Shown here one piece after another: positions 1,679 through 11,221 of a stretch of DNA of 12,778 bases. This DNA comes from Promethearchaeota archaeon. Lineage in GTDB: Archaea; Asgardarchaeota; Lokiarchaeia; Sigynarchaeales; SOKP01. The position numbers were made by a program, and so were the translations under genes. The DNA lies in the NCBI GenBank assembly GCA_016839655.1, contig JAEOTW010000213.1, forward strand, positions 1 to 12,778. The letters are read 5' to 3'. Under the pieces are notes generated by a model. The model did no database searches and was not told the DNA's origin. It saw only the letters and a list, made by a program, of their open reading frames with translations. How positions within the stretch are numbered: the first letter of the stretch is position 1; every line of letters begins with the position of its first letter.

Positions 1679-2458
1679 CTACACTTTATTTTTTTGTTTG
1701 GCTTTTTTTGGCTTTTTTACTTTATCTGTAAGATTTGTATTAGACCAATCTGTTATACCGTCTTCAGGAGTATCAATTAATTTCCCATCATTTATCCAGA
1801 TATTTTTACCTGAAGGATGTTCGGCTACCATTTTCGCTATTCTGGGGTCATGAGTAACAATTATGACTGTTTTTCCTTTCTTTGTTAAATTTAGCAATAG
1901 TTCTACAATCGATTTTCCTGTTTTTGAATCTAAATTACCGGTAGGTTCATCAGCTAGAATCAGATCGGGATCATTAATCAATGCTCTAGCAATAGCAACC
2001 CTTTGAGATTCTCCTCCAGATAATTTCCCAACCTTACTGTGAGTTCTATCGCCTAAACCTACCATTTCTAATAATTCAACTGCTTTTTTTCTGTTGTTAG
2101 GCGAAATTCTGTAGGGTACTAAAGGCATTAATACGTTTCCAATAACATCAATGTTAGGAAGAAGAAAATAATTCTGGAAAACAAATCCTACGACATTTTT
2201 CCTAAGTCCTGCTAGTTTCCTCTCAGGTAAACTTCCAATTTCAATATTATTCACAAAAATTTCTCCAGAAGTAGGATCATCCATCGCTCCAATTAGATTT
2301 AATAACGTGCTTTTACCACTCCCTGAGGGCCCCATAATCGTAATGACTTTCCCCCTATCAATTTTTAAACTGACGTTATCTAGTGCTCTAATTGTTGTTG
2401 TTTCTTCTCCGTATATCTTACTGACCTTTTTTAGTTGTATCAGAGTAATTTTTATCAC
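1679..2458 (-). CDS. ABC transporter ATPase, MacB/LolD family
   Basis: The 259-residue protein is a complete ABC nucleotide-binding subunit that should drive the adjacent FtsX/MacB-type permease from the cytoplasmic face. The Walker A motif is GPSGSGKST (43-51), the Q-loop is around FVFQNYFLLPN (92-102), the signature is LSGGESQRVAIARAL (146-160), Walker B is LILADEP (166-172), the D-loop is NLDS (175-178) and the switch His is in VTHD (201-204). The QNYFLLP stretch and strong N-terminal match (KKVSKIYG, ALDNVSL) are typical of the MacB/LolD/FtsE group of mechanotransmitting exporters. The C-terminus carries a lysine-rich tail, KVKKPKKAKQKNKV, beyond the usual domain. The start is a GTG at 2458-2456, one base after the permease stop TAA, and no ATG or other start lies nearby. 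The partner transports an unknown substrate. Confidence 0.95.
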   Translation of the reverse strand: MIKITLIQLKKVSKIYGEETTTIRALDNVSLKIDRGKVITIMGPSGSGKSTLLNLIGAMDDPTSGEIFVNNIEIGSLPERKLAGLRKNVVGFVFQNYFLLPNIDVIGNVLMPLVPYRISPNNRKKAVELLEMVGLGDRTHSKVGKLSGGESQRVAIARALINDPDLILADEPTGNLDSKTGKSIVELLLNLTKKGKTVIIVTHDPRIAKMVAEHPSGKNIWINDGKLIDTPEDGITDWSNTNLTDKVKKPKKAKQKNKV

Positions 2459-2459
2459 C

Positions 2460-3695
2460 TTATAGTTCTTTCAAAACTTTAACTGGTCTTACTTTAGATG
2501 CCTTTATACCAGGATATAATCCACCGAGTACTCCTAAAGCTACAGCATAAATAACTACCTGAACAATACCCTGCCAAGTAATCACAATTGGTGTAGATCC
2601 AAAAGCAGTTAAATTTCCACTTAAGGAGAAAATAAGTAATGACCCTATTATTAACCCAAAAACAGCACCTACTAAGCTCAAAGTAAGAGATTCTAAAATT
2701 ATATTAATTAGAATATGCTTATTTTTCCACCCCGTAGCTTTGAGAATAGCGAATTCTTTCATACGAGCAGACACAGACATTAATTGTCCTACTATAATTG
2801 CCATTCCTCCTGCTAACACGGTAATGATGCCCAATATCGCCGTAAAATCATATATTATTGACAAATTTTCCTCAATTGCTTGATAAAATGCGAAAAGTGA
2901 AAATGCAGAAATAGAGACGGGAAAATAATACCCATCACTAGAAAAATCTTTAATCTTTTCTACGAATACTTTGGTTTCTTCGTGACTTCTTACGTCAAAC
3001 CTCAGAGAAATTAGAGAGTAGATGTCAGTTATGTCTCCAGATTGTTCTCTAGCATCCCACATTGTCTGAATATCAGTATAAATATAATAATCTCTTGGAA
3101 TAAAGGGAGGTGTTCCATCTTCAATAGCTTCATAAATCCCTACAATAGTTAGTTCTAATGTCAAATTTTTAACTATGTCTAAATCCAATGTAATTTTATC
3201 TCCAATAGTGACAGGAAAATCTGCAATGGCCGCCAACTGTGAACTAATAATTGTTTCGTTTTGTCCGGCTTCAAAAGATCGTCCAACAGTAATTTTAGTG
3301 GTAAATCCATTCCACTCCTCATCTAGCGTTTTATTAAGACCCACCACAGTTAATCTATCACCTGGATTAGCTAATTTATCAGAATATTCTGCTGTATAAT
3401 AATATGGAGCTTGGGTTTCTACATTATAATTAATGATAAATTCCCCGACCTCGGTAGTATTTAGTAAACTCTCTGTAATATTCAAAGGTAAATGACTATC
3501 CGGTCCAAGTTTTGATTCTTCAACAATATTGACTGTTCCTAAAGTTCTTGTTAAATTGCTCTCGAATTGAACTTGAACTCCTGCGCTATATGCCCCCACT
3601 ACGAAAACTAACATAAGTCCAATAGCTACTCCCAAGCTAGATAAAATTGAAGTAGATTTTTTGCGAAATGCGTTTTTAATACTAAATTTTAACAT
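2460..3695 (-). CDS. ABC transporter permease, MacB/FtsX family
   Basis: The 411-residue protein has the standard MacB-type plan. It has a short basic N-terminus (FSIKNAFRKKSTS), TM1 at about 16-39, a large extracytoplasmic domain at about 40-275 with several N-x-T/S sequons, and three C-terminal helices at about 282-306, 330-357 and 374-397. The FtsX-domain coupling helix SARMKEFAILKATGWKNKHI (309-328) and the C-terminal LYPGIKASKVRPVKVLKEL (393-411) are diagnostic. In known relatives the extracytoplasmic domain moves mechanically to push lipoproteins, peptides or antibiotics out of the membrane; the substrate here is unknown. The ATG at 3695 is preceded by GGTGA with a 7-base spacer. A TATA-like box at 3725-3736 could let this gene and the ATPase be transcribed apart from the two upstream genes. 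Only one base separates its stop from the ATPase start. Confidence 0.95.
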   Translation of the reverse strand: MLKFSIKNAFRKKSTSILSSLGVAIGLMLVFVVGAYSAGVQVQFESNLTRTLGTVNIVEESKLGPDSHLPLNITESLLNTTEVGEFIINYNVETQAPYYYTAEYSDKLANPGDRLTVVGLNKTLDEEWNGFTTKITVGRSFEAGQNETIISSQLAAIADFPVTIGDKITLDLDIVKNLTLELTIVGIYEAIEDGTPPFIPRDYYIYTDIQTMWDAREQSGDITDIYSLISLRFDVRSHEETKVFVEKIKDFSSDGYYFPVSISAFSLFAFYQAIEENLSIIYDFTAILGIITVLAGGMAIIVGQLMSVSARMKEFAILKATGWKNKHILINIILESLTLSLVGAVFGLIIGSLLIFSLSGNLTAFGSTPIVITWQGIVQVVIYAVALGVLGGLYPGIKASKVRPVKVLKEL

Positions 3696-3702
3696 AAATT
3701 CT

Positions 3703-3707
3703 TCACC
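3703..3707 (-). promoter_or_regulatory. Ribosome binding site of the permease gene
   Basis: The minus strand reads GGTGA, 7 bases before the ATG at 3695. The same GGTGA motif stands before the starts at 12267 and 12754, which supports it as this genome's Shine-Dalgarno sequence. An out-of-frame ATG overlaps it and is not used. Confidence 0.7.
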
Positions 3708-3724
3708 ATATTTTTATTTTTTTT

Positions 3725-3736
3725 TTATAATTATAC
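3725..3736 (-). promoter_or_regulatory. Possible internal promoter (TATA box) before the permease
   Basis: The minus strand reads TATAATTATAAA about 30 to 41 bases before the permease ATG, inside the 53-base gap after the PlsY-like gene. The gap has no T-tract terminator for the minus strand, so read-through from upstream is equally possible. Confidence 0.4.
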
Positions 3737-3748
3737 TAGTTTGGTTGG

Positions 3749-4558
3749 TTAAATATTTACAAAAGTTAACACCGCATAAATCGCGATTGTAGCGCTTAAG
3801 CTAACAATACTTATCAGTATACGCCATTTTCCAAGCGATTTAAAGAAATCTTCCATTTTCTGCAATCCTCGAAATTGTGCGGTCATTTCAGTTATTTTTT
3901 CTTTATATTCCTTATCCTTACCTTCCTTACGGAGTTGAATATAAAGCTTGATTTCAGGGATCTGGCTTAAAATTGCTATTATATTTATAAGAACGGCATA
4001 CAATACAAAATTAATATCAAAATATCCGAGTAAAAACCACGGTATCATCATCCATAACCATAAATACGATGCAAAAACAAGGCTACCAAATAATGCGAAT
4101 CCTAGTAAATTTCCTAAAATGATATTGATAACTACAGCTAACCAATCAATCACTATTAAACTTCCAAACATAACGGAATGACCTCGACCACCCTTGAATC
4201 GATAATAAATTGGCCAATTATGTCCAATCAATCCAAACGCAGCAACATAGAGAAAATAAGGCTCTAATGGAAATAGGAAATATCGAAATATAATCAATGG
4301 GATTATAACTTTCATCATGTCAAGTATGCCGATAATAATTCCCCATTTTGTACCTAAAATTATGGAAGCTTTATTAGCACCTGCTCCCATCATTACTGTA
4401 ACTTCATCTTGAGAATTATCTAATTTAAGTTTAAGGTCATCAATTGATTTCTTAGGAGCCTTAATTCTCAAAATGATCCTTGAGAATGAAATTGAACCTA
4501 TAAGATACCCAATGATAGAACAGATGATGATAATTATAATATTAATGGTCGTTTTCAC
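3749..4558 (-). CDS. PlsY-like membrane acyltransferase with altered substrate loop and C-terminal extension
   Basis: This 269-residue membrane protein is a divergent member of the PlsY family (acyl-phosphate:glycerol-3-phosphate acyltransferase). Motif 1 is conserved as YLIGSISFSRII (18-29, Ser22 and Arg27). The DALKG-like element is DMMKV (80-84). Motif 3 is intact as GHNWPIYYRFKGGRG (112-126, His113). Motif 2, GSGNxGATN in PlsY and linked to glycerol-3-phosphate binding, reads GAGANKASI (58-66), and about 20 extra residues precede it. Canonical PlsY is near 200 residues; here a charged cytoplasmic segment (about 205-240, LRKEGKDKEYKEK) and one more helix (247-268) are added. The start is a GTG at 4558-4556, three bases after the upstream stop codon, with no nearby alternative; the protein becomes hydrophobic at once. 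Family membership is firm, but the acceptor is unknown and may not be glycerol-3-phosphate. No PlsX is visible in the window. Confidence 0.85.
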   Translation of the reverse strand: MKTTINIIIIIICSIIGYLIGSISFSRIILRIKAPKKSIDDLKLKLDNSQDEVTVMMGAGANKASIILGTKWGIIIGILDMMKVIIPLIIFRYFLFPLEPYFLYVAAFGLIGHNWPIYYRFKGGRGHSVMFGSLIVIDWLAVVINIILGNLLGFALFGSLVFASYLWLWMMIPWFLLGYFDINFVLYAVLINIIAILSQIPEIKLYIQLRKEGKDKEYKEKITEMTAQFRGLQKMEDFFKSLGKWRILISIVSLSATIAIYAVLTFVNI

Positions 4559-4561
4559 CTC

Positions 4562-7000
4562 TTAGGTATTTTTGATTTGTTCAAGTAATTCAGGTAGTTC
4601 CCCCTCATGCTTGTAAGTATCTTCTAAAATAGAAATTTTACCTTTATATGCATCAACGGCAATTAATGTGTTATCTTTTAAAAGAGTTGCATTATTGACA
4701 GATACCACTGCAGGAATGTTATATTCTCTCGCAACAATAGAACAATGTGATAAAATCCCCCCCGATTCTGAGATCACCGCTTTCGCTTTAGCAAATAGAG
4801 GTGTCCAACTTACATCTGAATAAGGAATCGCAATTATATCACCATCTTGAATTTTATTTATATCGTTTATTCCTCTAACTATCTTGACAGGACCAACATG
4901 ATATCCTTTTGAAGTAGGTACTCCCTCTAATTCTTTAGTTATATGTGCCTGGTTTATAGGTACTGGTAAAAAGTCATCATAAATAATTTCTGGAAGCTTA
5001 ATATTTCGATATTTTACCATTTCAATTTTTCTCTTAGTTATTTTATTTTTAAAATCTATTGATTTTTCCTTGTTTTCTATGAGTTCTTTCACTTCATCAG
5101 AATTCATATAGAAAATATCATTCTTTTCTTTTATTAGTCCTTTACTTACAAATAAATCACCAATTCGTAAGTAAAACCTCCTAAAGAGCCCATATCCATA
5201 ACTATAGATATTAGTTACTAGTTGTCGATATTCAAGATAACGCATTGCCCTGTTGAATAATAAGTTAGAGAAAGGGGATTTGAATATATCTTTTTTTATT
5301 GTCTTTATTCTTTTTTTATTACCTTTTTCTAATTGTGGTTCTTGGTATTCTATTACCATTTTTAATATTTCATCAGGGTTTTCACTCCACACTGACTGTG
5401 AAAAATCATTTTGGTTATCTCGAAGGTACCCAAATTTCAACAAAAAATTCTGAAAATCCTTAGTGAACTTAAGATCAGGGTAATACGACAGTAATTCTTT
5501 ATAAACCATCTTTTTTATGTTTTCTTTTTCAGAATCTTTCAGTTTCTTAAACTCTTTATTTAATTTAGAAATTTGTGCACGCGGATCCGAAAATTCAAGT
5601 CTTTTATTAATAGCTGAGAAATTTAGTCCCTCGAACTCGATTGAATTTTTCTGTAATTTGTTTTTTATCATTTTATTGTAAAAATTGTTTAGAAGCTGCG
5701 TTAATATGACGAAATAAGAAGCTTGAATATTCAGTACTATAAGTTTATTAATAATTTCCAAACTTTCTTTCTCATCTAGATTTCCAATATTTATTTCTTC
5801 TATTGGTTTATATTCCTTTTTATGCAATTTTAAAAATTTTTCAATATATTTTGAAAAAGAATATAATTTTAAACTAAACAAAAGAATCCGTGGCAAATAA
5901 TAGAGAGTTCTGCCAGATGGTTTAAAACTCGGTTTATCCTTTCCATTACTTTCTATTCCCGCAAGATTTTCTAAAAGATCTCGTGGCATCCCAAACAATT
6001 CGAAAATGTCGCCCATAATTTTCATATTAAAATATGCTCGATAATAAAACTGATGAGCAAGTTGGTTAATATCAATTTTTTTGGCGGAAGATCCAATAAG
6101 TTCTTCGAAAATATGTTTCCAAGATGTATTTACCACCCTTATATTTACTGACCAGATTAATGGTTTTATCATCCCCGGCAAAAATTCTCTCGAGAGTTTA
6201 TTAGAATAGAGCTTATTGTTTTTCAAGGTGGTTATTTGTCTTAATTGTAGCCAATAAAGATTCTTGCCATCATAAGCCCATTCAAGATCTACAGGTTCAC
6301 CATATTTTTTACCAATTTTTCTTGATTCTTCTGCTATTTTGGTAAAAATTTCTTTCTTGGCTTCAGATTTAGGGGGGAGTTCAATCCATTCGCCCCATTT
6401 GTTTACCCATCGTTCAGGAGTTTTTCCTAGTTGAACCAAATTTTCTCCAAGCCCTTCGATTGATTCGATTATTATTTCATTTAATCCTGTAATTGGATTT
6501 CTAGTAAAAACCACGCCAGAGAATTCGGGAAAAACCATTTCTTGTATTATTACACCCATTTTGATTTGATCTGAACTTTCAGAAAACACCTTTCTATAAG
6601 TTTGCGGTTTTTCATCTTCAAATGAATTCCACAGCTCAACCACATTATTTAAAATATTATGAATTCCCTTTTGGTTTAATAGTGTGAGAAATTGCCCTGC
6701 AAAGGAGTTATCTGATTCATCTTCTATATTGGCTGAAGATCTAACAGAATAAGATTTATGTTCTTCAATATAATACTGCAATTCCTTTTTTAAATCAGTT
6801 AATATTGTAGAATCTCCTTGATTGTAAAGATTAAAAGCCTTAAAACTGCATACGAAGGTTAGAGGAATTTTGAATCCTTTTTTCAGAAGAAATCTTAAAT
6901 TAAGGGCTTTATTTCCTATGTTTTCATTGATATCTTCAAGGTTAAAAATATATTGCTTATGGTTTTTATAATATTGTTTCAACTTTTTCAAATTGACCAA
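4562..7000 (-). CDS. Rifampin-phosphotransferase-like (PEP-synthase-related) dikinase
   Basis: This 812-residue soluble enzyme has an N-terminal ATP-grasp domain of the PPDK/PEP-synthase type: GNKALNLRFLLKKGFKIP (29-46), SVRSSANIEDESDNSFAGQF (85-104), IQEMVFPEFSGVVFTRNP (152-169) and DLEWAYDGKNLYWLQLRQI (238-256). A substrate-facing middle region spans about 270-690 and includes FGYLRDNQNDFSQSVWSENP (523-542). A swivelling phosphohistidine domain ends the protein, with ESGGILSHCSIVARE (745-759) carrying the expected catalytic His752. It stops soon after this domain, so the PEP/pyruvate TIM barrel of PEP synthase and PPDK is absent. This is the architecture of rifampin phosphotransferase, which moves the ATP beta-phosphate through His to a bound small molecule; the acceptor here is unknown. 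The start is a TTG at 7000 behind AAGGAGG (7014-7020); an in-frame stop at 7006-7004 excludes a longer form. It leads the block, three bases before the PlsY-like gene. Confidence 0.9.
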   Translation of the reverse strand: MVNLKKLKQYYKNHKQYIFNLEDINENIGNKALNLRFLLKKGFKIPLTFVCSFKAFNLYNQGDSTILTDLKKELQYYIEEHKSYSVRSSANIEDESDNSFAGQFLTLLNQKGIHNILNNVVELWNSFEDEKPQTYRKVFSESSDQIKMGVIIQEMVFPEFSGVVFTRNPITGLNEIIIESIEGLGENLVQLGKTPERWVNKWGEWIELPPKSEAKKEIFTKIAEESRKIGKKYGEPVDLEWAYDGKNLYWLQLRQITTLKNNKLYSNKLSREFLPGMIKPLIWSVNIRVVNTSWKHIFEELIGSSAKKIDINQLAHQFYYRAYFNMKIMGDIFELFGMPRDLLENLAGIESNGKDKPSFKPSGRTLYYLPRILLFSLKLYSFSKYIEKFLKLHKKEYKPIEEINIGNLDEKESLEIINKLIVLNIQASYFVILTQLLNNFYNKMIKNKLQKNSIEFEGLNFSAINKRLEFSDPRAQISKLNKEFKKLKDSEKENIKKMVYKELLSYYPDLKFTKDFQNFLLKFGYLRDNQNDFSQSVWSENPDEILKMVIEYQEPQLEKGNKKRIKTIKKDIFKSPFSNLLFNRAMRYLEYRQLVTNIYSYGYGLFRRFYLRIGDLFVSKGLIKEKNDIFYMNSDEVKELIENKEKSIDFKNKITKRKIEMVKYRNIKLPEIIYDDFLPVPINQAHITKELEGVPTSKGYHVGPVKIVRGINDINKIQDGDIIAIPYSDVSWTPLFAKAKAVISESGGILSHCSIVAREYNIPAVVSVNNATLLKDNTLIAVDAYKGKISILEDTYKHEGELPELLEQIKNT

Positions 7001-7013
7001 ATATTATCACTAT

Positions 7014-7020
7014 CCTCCTT
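7014..7020 (-). promoter_or_regulatory. Strong Shine-Dalgarno site for the phosphotransferase gene
   Basis: The minus strand reads AAGGAGG, the strongest ribosome site in the window. It is 13 bases from the TTG start at 7000, longer than usual. A GTG only 3 bases away is out of frame. The TTG is the first start codon after the in-frame TAA at 7006-7004. Confidence 0.65.
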
Positions 7021-7654: not shown

Positions 7655-7657
7655 TTG

Positions 7658-8593
7658 ATGGGTAAGGAAATGAAAATCATGAAGAATATAACCTTGGAAA
7701 AAAACCTGAGATACATGTATGCTTCCATTTTTATCTTAATCATAATCCTTATAATTGTTTTCAATCAGGTAGATAAAATTCTTTATACTCCTGTTATGAC
7801 CCCTGAAGAGTGGTTAGAAAGTCAACCCTGGATACAACTAGATTTCTTTTCATTAAACATAATACTGGTTCAGCCCAGCTCCACTTTATTTGTATACTCA
7901 CTTGGTATTATAGCAATCGTATTTGGAGTTCTTTTATTAAAAACTGATAAAAGTAATAAATTTATATCATGGTGGGGTATAGCATTGATATTATGGGGGA
8001 TAGGTGCAGTTTTCGCAGGTACTAGTTATCAAGCATTCAGTTACGAGATCAAATGTGCTGGTAGGAGTTCTTGCATATGGACAAGTGTATGGGAACTATT
8101 GTACCTTATATTTTCAGTTGGAAGTGTAAATGCAATGTTAATGGCTCAAGTAAATTTAGATGAGAAGAATAAATTGAGTAGAATCATGGAAAAATACGCA
8201 CTTATGAACTTTTTAATTTATGAAATCATAGTCCTAATCGGAGCAATAATTCCCGTCCAGTTTATGATTTCATTTGAACTCATGATCCTATTTTTAGCCC
8301 CTACCATCTTATTCTTATTAATTTCCAATGTTCATAATTATTTTGAGTATAAAAGGCGCATCAACTTCTCTCTTACAATTATTTGGTTATCTTTAATCCT
8401 GATAATTGGATTATATTTCCTGTATTTCATGCTTGGAATTACAGACTTACTTTGGGAACAGCATATTTGGTTCTCTGAGAATGATGTGCTCCATATCGGC
8501 TTGATACTGTGGATGATTTTTATATATATTACCATAAATAGAAATAAAAAAAGAATACCAAATATCGAAAAAACAGGAAACCTTGCAATTTAA
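7658..8593 (+). CDS. Seven- or eight-TM membrane protein, unknown function
   Basis: This is a multi-spanning membrane protein of about 311 residues. Helices lie near residues 23-40, 77-97, 104-128, 142-166, 180-203, 205-226, 233-262 and 280-297. The extracytoplasmic or lumenal segment after the first helix contains MTPEEWLESQPWIQ. Two Cys residues flank a short loop (KCAGRSSCIWTS) and could form a disulfide. The late helix reads ENDVLHIGLILWMIFIY. The phrases AGTSYQAFSYE and DVLHIGLILW have a weak flavour of the 7-TM ceramidase/PAQR (CREST) group, but the expected His pattern is not clear, so I do not assign it. Four in-frame starts compete: TTG 7655 and ATG 7658, 7670 and 7679. I give the first ATG, while the TATA box at 7647-7654 and AAGGA at 7664-7668 favour 7679. 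It converges on the 4-TM gene, 37 bases away. Confidence 0.8.
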   Translation: MGKEMKIMKNITLEKNLRYMYASIFILIIILIIVFNQVDKILYTPVMTPEEWLESQPWIQLDFFSLNIILVQPSSTLFVYSLGIIAIVFGVLLLKTDKSNKFISWWGIALILWGIGAVFAGTSYQAFSYEIKCAGRSSCIWTSVWELLYLIFSVGSVNAMLMAQVNLDEKNKLSRIMEKYALMNFLIYEIIVLIGAIIPVQFMISFELMILFLAPTILFLLISNVHNYFEYKRRINFSLTIIWLSLILIIGLYFLYFMLGITDLLWEQHIWFSENDVLHIGLILWMIFIYITINRNKKRIPNIEKTGNLAI

Positions 8594-9281: not shown

Positions 9282-9758
9282 ATGAAAATACAAATAATGA
9301 CTAATACCAAGTTTGGTAATGGTAAATTATTAGCCGAAGCTCTTAAACAAGAGTTTTCCAGCGATGTTGAAGTTAATATTGCTGATGTGAAGGAGGTATC
9401 TCCTGAAAAGATTGCTGAAGATCATCCAAATGTGATTATTCTAGGAGGAGCAATACGGGCGTTTAGAGCAGACCCAAAATCTAAGAAATGGTTATCTAAG
9501 TTAAACAATAGCCTTGAAAAATCTGGGAAAAAAATTCAATACGGGACTGGCTTTTTAACCCACTCAATGCCAACTGATAAAGTTCAGGGATATGCTACGA
9601 AATATCTAAAAAAAATAGAAAGCCTGTCGATGATTGAAAGTACATATTCCGAATTGTTAACTGCTCGAGTTAAGGACATGAAGGGTCCTATCTTCCCAGA
9701 AGAAATGGAAAAAGCGAGAGGTTATATCAAGGAATTTAACAATTGGATCCAAAAATAA
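9282..9758 (+). CDS. Flavodoxin-like protein
   Basis: The 158-residue cytoplasmic protein has the size and alternating beta/alpha order of a single-domain flavodoxin. The first strand and phosphate loop read KIQIMTNTKFGNGKLLAEAL (2-21), with T7-N8-T9 and G12-N13-G14 where FMN phosphate is held. The third strand, VIILGGAIRAF (51-61), leads to the loop next to the isoalloxazine ring, and the fourth, IQYGTGFLTHSM (85-96), to the second ring-contacting loop. It would carry electrons for an unknown redox partner, or act as a small NAD(P)H-linked flavoprotein; no iron-sulfur motif is present. A good TATA box (9243-9250) precedes it. Its last 20 codons recur in decayed form at 11655-11714, so the genome once had a second copy. 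The DHA1 exporter gene follows 206 bases downstream with its own promoter. Confidence 0.85.
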   Translation: MKIQIMTNTKFGNGKLLAEALKQEFSSDVEVNIADVKEVSPEKIAEDHPNVIILGGAIRAFRADPKSKKWLSKLNNSLEKSGKKIQYGTGFLTHSMPTDKVQGYATKYLKKIESLSMIESTYSELLTARVKDMKGPIFPEEMEKARGYIKEFNNWIQK

Positions 9759-9964: not shown

Positions 9965-11221
9965 ATGACAAAGAAATATAAATATAGAGATCTTAATCCT
10001 CTTTGGATTTCGGTTTTTGTGGATATTCTTGGATTTAGTATTATCCTTCCCTTTTTGCCGTTCTTTATCGCTGAATTTAATGCCTCACCCGTAATTATCG
10101 GATTTTTGTTAAGTTCGAATGCGATTTTTGGATTCTTTTTTGGACCAATACTTAGTAAATTGAGTGATACTTATGGTCGAAAACCTTTAATGCTGATTTC
10201 TTTAGCGGGAACGTTTGTAGGTTTTATACTTTTAATTGTTTCTAATAATATTATTGTTTTACTAATTTCAAGAATAATAGATGGAATATTTAGTGGTCAA
10301 TTCCCAATTGCGAAAGCAATTATTGGTGATGTAGTATCTCCCGAAGATCGGCCAAAGCAAATGACCAATATTGGAATAACGTTTGGCTTAGCATTCTTAA
10401 TAGGCCCTGGTATTGGAGGTGTATTATCTTCTTTTGGATTCATAGGACCTGGTATTCTTGCAGCAATATTAACGGGTTTTTCATTTGTATATACATTAAT
10501 ATATTTAAAGGAAAGTTTACCAAGCAAGGTAGGACGTATTACGTGGGAAATAAATTTACCAGAAATACATGAATTAGGTACAGAATCACAATCTTTTTGG
10601 AAAAGTAATAAAACTTTGACTCTAGTGATACAATATAGTTTTATTGCAATTACAGGAGGTATACTACAAACAACCTTCAGTCTTTTTGCTGGTATTCGTC
10701 TCGGTCTAGAGCCATTAATTGTAGGGATTTTATTGACACTCTTAGGAGTATATCAAATACTTTTTCGGGCATTACTATTTAATCGTTTAAGAGACAAACT
10801 TGGGGATCCTAAAACTGCACTTTTAGGATTAGGTACTTATATATTTTCATATTTACTATTAGCTTTTGCTACTCAAGCTTGGGTATTGGTTATACTGTTG
10901 TTATTTGTTAGCTTTGCAGGATCTACCTCTCAGGGAATAGTGACAGGTTTTATAAGCCGCTCTGTGGATAATCGAAACCAAGGTAAAATAATGGGAATCA
11001 CTACTGGAATAGATAATTTAGCACAGATACTCGGCCCTATAATTGGAGGTATATTACTTTCGTTCACCGGAAATCTACCATATGCTCTAGCCCTGAGCCT
11101 TTTAAGCATAATACCTTTCTCTATTGGTTTTAAGGTTTTAAAATTCGGTTATGACAATAGAAAAGTAGTTGATACCAAGCAAATCCCAAGAGAAACTATA
11201 GAACCTAAAATCATCACCTAA
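9965..11221 (+). CDS. MFS drug:H+ antiporter, DHA1 (12-TM) type
   Basis: This 418-residue protein is a complete major-facilitator exporter in the cytoplasmic membrane with about 12 helices. TM1 carries the DHA1 motif D, DILGFSIILPFLP (20-32). The loop between TM2 and TM3 is motif A, GPILSKLSDTYGRK (60-73). Motif B in TM4 is ISRIIDGIFSG (101-111, Arg103). The antiporter motif C in TM5 is GLAFLIGPGIGG (141-152), which in this superfamily marks proton-coupled exporters as opposed to importers. A central cytoplasmic loop (about 183-212) and a second motif-A-like loop NRLRDKLGDPK around residues 274-284 complete the two-bundle plan. A substrate such as a drug, sugar or metabolite cannot be named. 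The ATG at 9965 follows a TATA box and a possible operator, which would suit induction by a small molecule. T-tracts follow the gene. Confidence 0.93.
   Translation: MTKKYKYRDLNPLWISVFVDILGFSIILPFLPFFIAEFNASPVIIGFLLSSNAIFGFFFGPILSKLSDTYGRKPLMLISLAGTFVGFILLIVSNNIIVLLISRIIDGIFSGQFPIAKAIIGDVVSPEDRPKQMTNIGITFGLAFLIGPGIGGVLSSFGFIGPGILAAILTGFSFVYTLIYLKESLPSKVGRITWEINLPEIHELGTESQSFWKSNKTLTLVIQYSFIAITGGILQTTFSLFAGIRLGLEPLIVGILLTLLGVYQILFRALLFNRLRDKLGDPKTALLGLGTYIFSYLLLAFATQAWVLVILLLFVSFAGSTSQGIVTGFISRSVDNRNQGKIMGITTGIDNLAQILGPIIGGILLSFTGNLPYALALSLLSIIPFSIGFKVLKFGYDNRKVVDTKQIPRETIEPKIIT

Follow-up and report, generated by a model that had tools for sequence, protein, structure and literature searches.

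The window, by which we mean the whole stretch of 12,778 nucleotides analysed here, contains four genes on its minus strand that begin with a dikinase of the rifampin phosphotransferase (RPH) type and a PlsY-fold membrane protein. The dikinase (4562..7000; 812 aa, TTG start) has the domain order, the ATP-site residues and the phosphohistidine of RPH, and its co-conservation with the PlsY-fold protein reaches as far as gene fusion. It is followed by the gene of the PlsY-fold protein (3749..4558; 269 aa, GTG start; PF02660, 4.6e-17), a permease of the MacB/LolCE type (2460..3695; 411 aa; MacB_PCD 7.4e-17, FtsX 1.9e-15) and an ABC ATPase of the LolD/MacB type (1679..2458; 259 aa; ABC_tran 8.7e-34). 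This confirms an earlier sequence-only reading in which the dikinase directly preceded a PlsY-family gene; the permease and ATPase genes, which recur beside relatives, had been passed over there. The named close relatives belong to Lokiarchaeota/Promethearchaeota, in line with the archaeal host suspected in that reading. A Shine-Dalgarno-like GGAGGA can be read upstream of the dikinase (7013..7018, minus), and a second such motif, GAGGTGA, lies directly past its stop codon and overlaps the GTG of the PlsY-fold gene (4555..4561, minus). The gap of three bases reported previously holds if translation starts at this GTG. However, in a 97% identical relative (P0001) the PlsY-fold protein starts at codon 5 of the window gene, where the window reads ATT (4544-4546) and close relatives have Met. 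A non-AUG start at this codon (4546-4544) is therefore probable, and together with the placement of GAGGTGA it suggests that the gap may be 15 nt.

The Pfam matches of the dikinase are PPDK_N and PEP-utilizers, no match to the TIM barrel (PEP-utilizers_C) was listed, and the His domain is C-terminal, which distinguishes the protein from PEP synthase and PPDK and bears out its earlier description as TIM-barrel-less. As in RPH, an ATP-grasp domain (residues ~15-260; 6221..6958, minus) is followed by a central, mostly helical substrate domain with the family signature FYYRAYFNM (residues ~264-680; 4961..6211, minus) and a swivelling phosphohistidine domain (residues ~690-793; 4622..4933, minus). 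The catalytic His752 in LSHCSIVAREY (4745..4747, minus) is invariant in all 93 aligned sequences, the window included. In the ATP site, R87 (90/93) and T106 align with R117 and T136 of RPH, and K31 (88/93) pairs with K22 by motif. By a gapless hand count rather than a structural superposition, R666/E667 of RPH correspond to R592/Q593 of the window; position 592 is Arg in 87 of the 93 dikinases and position 593 is Glu in 73, Gln in the window and Gln or Leu in close relatives. RPH is also the best-matching solved structure, which backs the earlier RPH-like call, albeit at an identity of ~20% and with 200.1 bits to the RPH equivalog model (NCBIfam NF041857) against a cut-off of 999. PF27448 is precomputed on many dikinase homologues; our Pfam scan of five proteins gave no match to it.

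The fold of the second protein is supported by PF02660 (G3P_acyltransf; 63 bits vs a cut-off of 24.1) and by the match of a profile of 20 window-type PlsYs to the PlsY structure 5xj5 (E 9e-16). The two elements of the acyl-phosphate hole are present: His113 (4220..4222, minus) is equivalent to PlsY His92, and the GGRG loop of residues 123-126 (4181..4192, minus) to GGKG with Lys104 replaced by Arg; His and GGxG are kept in 23/23 window-type sequences. The clamp for glycerol-3-phosphate (G3P) is not conserved. The window has V, I, R, E and Q at S35, R45, K104, N180 and H177, where the divergent S35-R45 loop is the least sure part of the alignment, and none of 41 aligned dikinase-linked PlsYs keeps all five residues together. 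The score against the TIGR00023 equivalog is 56.0 bits (cut-off 137.2). Given the loss of the clamp, the window protein is probably no ordinary G3P acyltransferase. R230-G231 in the C-terminal tail is invariant across the 20 aligned window-type proteins. Two separate origins of the dikinase-linked PlsYs were considered and dropped: tree groups A and B+C are separate and well supported, yet the AU test does not reject a single clade (p 0.385).

Linkage of the two genes extends far beyond the window. Among the best 120 of 1689 dikinase homologues, the window's own protein included, 36 exceed 930 aa, and PF02660 is found in all 36. A contig scan with the dikinase, restricted to the best 80 of 578 confirmed loci, comprised 28 non-cyanobacterial and 52 cyanobacterial loci. 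Custom profiles located a PlsY within 5 kb of the dikinase in 22 of the 28, with placements that vary from upstream to downstream, convergent, divergent or fused; close same-strand neighbours occur in 14, eleven separated by -4 to 18 nt and three with larger apparent overlaps of the longest frames. As to the six loci lacking PlsY, the dikinase lies at a contig end with one flank missing in four (L001, L005, L044, L058), and the short contigs of L011 and L020 come from genomes with a window-type or fused-type PlsY elsewhere (L108, L094). In cyanobacteria 49/52 loci are fused, two (L066, L074) show split neighbouring frames and one (L059) begins at a contig end. The sequence-only reading would have been contradicted by homologues that are not neighbours in related genomes, and these counts speak against that outcome. 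The pair is not specifically archaeal: fusion or adjacency was seen in contigs titled Asgard archaea, Chloroflexota, Thermotogota, Actinomycetota, Clostridia, Gammaproteobacteria and Cyanobacteria.

Frequencies were taken from genome samples, each of which, like the Asgard sample described below, includes its known-positive starting genome. Judged by dikinase profile and frame length, 37 of 117 cyanobacterial genomes carry a frame of at least 939 aa that scores 222 bits or more, and genomes near 2 Mb have mostly weak matches only. The strong dikinase form occurs in 2/201 Chloroflexota and 1/250 Thermoproteota, and PlsY adjoins it in all three. In contrast, no PlsY match was found within ~1.5 kb flanks of more distant dikinases, neither in 21 Asgard loci (L120-L140, including that of G068) nor in 57 of 60 loci from Chloroflexota and Thermoproteota, and these dikinases were left out of the family. 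Four loci (L006, L010, L019, L171) have a single dikinase near two window-type PlsY genes, as would be expected if one donor enzyme served two acylations. In L017, two PlsY hits near the dikinase are overlapping frames and possibly one misread gene. Taken together, the dikinase and the PlsY-fold protein very likely work jointly; in the portion of the open-licence PMC literature covered, no report of such a pair or fusion was found.

The combination of a MacB_PCD and FtsX permease with an ABC ATPase identifies the other two genes of the set as an exporter of the MacB/LolDE type. The ATPase matches the LolD model with 4.8e-65, yet under the curated cut-off, and no adaptor gene was recognised among the window open reading frames (ORFs) scanned. 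The order ATPase-permease-dikinase-PlsY is found in four Asgard genomes (G001, G122, G135, G148), and in G092 a fusion is followed by a permease (526 bits to the window permease) and an ATPase. Such an ATPase and/or permease is found near the dikinase in 6/22 bacterial non-cyanobacterial loci (L004, L005, L009, L012, L015, L048); the genome of L048 has such exporter genes at L096 as well.

The partners of PlsY were compared in a sample of 148 genomes of the Asgard phylum, searched with dikinase, PlsY and other profiles. Some dikinase match is present in 124, and nine reach at least 848 bits (G028 being clipped by a contig end); below this value follow G068 with 335 bits, whose 5.4-kb locus has no PlsY, and the others listed with at most 194 bits. 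Within the nine, G092 and G151 have a fused PlsY, G001, G028, G122, G135 and G148 have an adjacent one and G120 has one in a same-strand cluster, and the contig of G159 stops directly past the dikinase. PlsX, which the sequence-only reading had not seen, was absent from the ten window ORFs scanned, and PF02504 was found in 0/148 Asgard genomes, in agreement with Coleman 2019 (PMC6431249). PF02660 is present in 53 genomes: 29 with DegV/FakB (among them G151, where the dikinase occurs too), eight with the dikinase alone, 15 with ~400-aa frames and one with a fragment (G146). All 29 genomes with DegV/FakB over the cut-off carry PF02660, and DegV is present in each of the 24 genomes with a strong canonical-type PlsY (at least 146 bits) and in just one of the nine dikinase genomes. 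One of ten loci fetched (L238, G145) shows a plsY-fakB-fakA cluster (1634-2353, 2422-3264, 3387-4328). FakAB may thus supply acyl-phosphate in PlsX-less Asgards with canonical-type PlsY. In the ~400-aa class, represented by three proteins (L165 171-1376, L167 850-2058, L168 1462-2670) with all others assigned by length alone, the second half of L165 has 50 relatives, three of them named dolichol kinase, one diacylglycerol/polyprenol kinase and three carrying PF01148; Pfam scans of the three second halves gave nothing significant. In PlsX-less Asgards, PlsY-fold proteins thus tend to accompany a lipid or fatty-acid kinase, and next to FakB and the dolichol-kinase-like half the dikinase would be the third such partner. 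PlsC (PF01553) occurs in 49/148 Asgards and 3/9 dikinase genomes, with no clear pattern.

By analogy with these partnerships, we tentatively propose that the window encodes a four-gene lipid module in which the dikinase would make a lipid phosphate, likeliest an acyl-phosphate, for a PlsY-fold transferase with an acceptor other than G3P. The dikinase histidine would be charged from ATP, giving AMP and Pi, and swing to the central domain, where it would phosphorylate a lipophilic substrate, likeliest a free fatty acid. The adjacent PlsY-fold protein would receive the resulting acyl-phosphate in its acyl-phosphate hole and transfer the acyl group, though not to G3P in its known pose but to another acceptor, and the ABC exporter would then transport the lipid product. 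The earlier suggestion of a kinase that supplies the PlsY-fold protein can be upheld by analogy only, whereas an ordinary G3P acyltransferase as its recipient is unlikely for the reason given above. A wider formulation, in which an ATP-to-AMP fatty-acid dikinase on the RPH fold would join PlsX and FakAB as a third acyl-phosphate synthase, feeding a non-G3P PlsY-fold acyltransferase common to Asgards, cyanobacteria and other bacteria, is somewhat less probable. The joint reaction as such is something we infer.

Several observations weigh against this proposal. A carboxylate substrate requires no catalytic base; the Glu found at the RPH base position in 73/93 dikinases therefore rather favours a hydroxyl substrate. 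The His92 equivalent is missing in fused-type (12/12) and cyanobacterial (6/6) PlsY domains, so that the acyl-phosphate site is not kept family-wide. Only 9/53 PF02660-bearing Asgards have the dikinase, and the split between FakB and dikinase may follow phylogeny; the Fisher tests take no account of kinship or of genome completeness. In the bacterial source genomes carrying the module, PlsX is present in 13/14 and another, stronger PF02660 protein (at least 114 bits) in 13/14; the module is therefore no simple PlsX replacement. Finally, one Loki-type operon holds polyprenyl-phosphate-glycan-like genes and no fatty-acid genes: in L174 (3-12901), a fusion appears to share an operon with genes for CrtI-like FAD enzymes, GT87, UbiA, DUF362, GtrA, a permease and an ATPase.

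The same Glu and the same operon would fit a kinase for a membrane-lipid hydroxyl (polyprenol, prenol or diglyceride), with the PlsY-fold protein merely holding lipid and phosphate in the former acyl-phosphate hole without acyl transfer. The loss of the complete five-residue set in all 41 aligned dikinase-linked PlsYs agrees with this, as do the ~400-aa PlsY proteins of 15/148 Asgards, one searched half of which has relatives named dolichol or polyprenol kinase. However, His92 and GGxG are retained in all 23 window-type PlsYs, the four loci that combine one dikinase with two PlsYs fit poorly, and the polyprenyl-like context was seen at one locus only. We consider a lipid-alcohol kinase unlikely, though a serious contender, and favour the dikinase as acyl-phosphate donor over it.

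Two further explanations appear improbable to a similar degree. The dikinase could phosphorylate a polar acceptor that PlsY then acylates with acyl-phosphate from another source; the lost clamp for free G3P, the invariant R230-G231 in the tail of 20 window-type PlsYs and the availability of bacterial PlsX as donor source are compatible with this, but Asgards lack PlsX and 8/9 dikinase Asgards lack DegV, so that acyl-phosphate would be missing there unless it had another source. Alternatively, the genes could form a detoxification module, with an RPH-type kinase to modify a hydrophobic toxin or antibiotic, a MacB-like pump to remove it and the PlsY-fold protein as an accessory. RPH as the closest solved structure, the MacB/LolDE-type ABC genes that often adjoin and a MatE gene in the neighbourhood of the L016 dikinase (L018 has a similar gene) point in this direction, but the RPH equivalog score of 200 bits is far from the cut-off of 999, and a detoxification kinase would not be expected to be co-conserved and fused with a lipid-enzyme fold. 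That the genes are chance neighbours in a compact genome, as any two genes may be, is refuted for practical purposes by fusion and adjacency in varied orders across phyla vs none beside distant dikinases.

Other neighbouring genes were considered as a clue to the substrate and set aside, since ferrochelatase/CbiX-like, HupE/UreJ plus DUF6512, GDSL hydrolase and cupin genes recur only in parts of the tree. Ferrochelatase/CbiX-like genes lie near the dikinase in L006, L011, L013, L015, L023, L024 and L058 (L013 and L024 by similarity only) and overlap it in two of these loci (L023, L058). Genes for HupE/UreJ and DUF6512-type membrane proteins were noted near the dikinase or PlsY in L004, L006, L008, L010, L017 and L019, called by Pfam in L004 and by clustering or eye in the other loci. 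At its end, the fusion gene of Nostoc-like loci shares 4 nt with a small gene (L026, 11229-11606, with a cupin domain shown; similar in L027, L030, L035, L040 and L055). The window itself further encodes a DUF6962 membrane protein (7655-8593), a flavodoxin-like protein with a score under the Pfam cut-off (9282-9758) and an MFS transporter (9965-11221), for which no membership in the module is claimed. Searches of the window for terminator-like sites above chance, RNA families and tRNAs gave nothing of help.

Earlier papers have pointed to the PlsY homologues of Loki- and Thorarchaeota as a possible indication of bacterial-type membrane lipids (PMC6431249, PMC6737245, PMC13400652), and a 2022 review states that the function of these homologues is still to be elucidated (PMC9385802). 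Here, Asgard PlsY homologues were sorted into classes with different kinase partners. As the G3P clamp is missing from the dikinase-linked class to which the window protein belongs, this class ought not to be taken as evidence for bacterial phospholipids unless an assay supports it. The pair hints at an undescribed route to a phosphorylated or acylated lipid and offers a specific candidate for a new lipid-phosphate route that is open to assay, in cyanobacteria as well; if the proposal is true, the dikinase is a third source of acyl-phosphate, beside PlsX and FakAB, in archaea devoid of PlsX.

Among known systems, RPH resembles the window dikinase in its succession of ATP-grasp, helical substrate and C-terminal swivelling His domains, and RPH and the small-molecule dikinases HpeHI/CreHI/PpsAB share with it the catalytic His, the ATP-site residues and, by the hand count, the Arg of the R666/E667 pair (PMC4844700, PMC12167813). 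Unlike RPH, the window protein is paired or fused with a PlsY-fold protein, in addition to its low identity and its score far under the RPH equivalog cut-off. The partner differs from PlsY, the acyl-phosphate:G3P acyltransferase, in that S35/R45/N180 and H177 are not conserved, K104 is Arg and the TIGR00023 cut-off is not reached. The FakAB system provides PlsY with acyl-phosphate independently of PlsX through a kinase partner, as proposed for the dikinase, and is represented in Asgards by the plsY-fakB-fakA cluster described here. In contrast to FakA and FakB (DAK2 and DegV families), the dikinase would release AMP and Pi, and its partner is fused or translationally coupled. With the MacB/LolCDE-type ABC exporters the window has the FtsX/MacB_PCD permease and the LolD-like ATPase in common, but its exporter, for which no adaptor was recognised among the scanned ORFs, stands in one genetic unit with the dikinase and the PlsY-fold protein.

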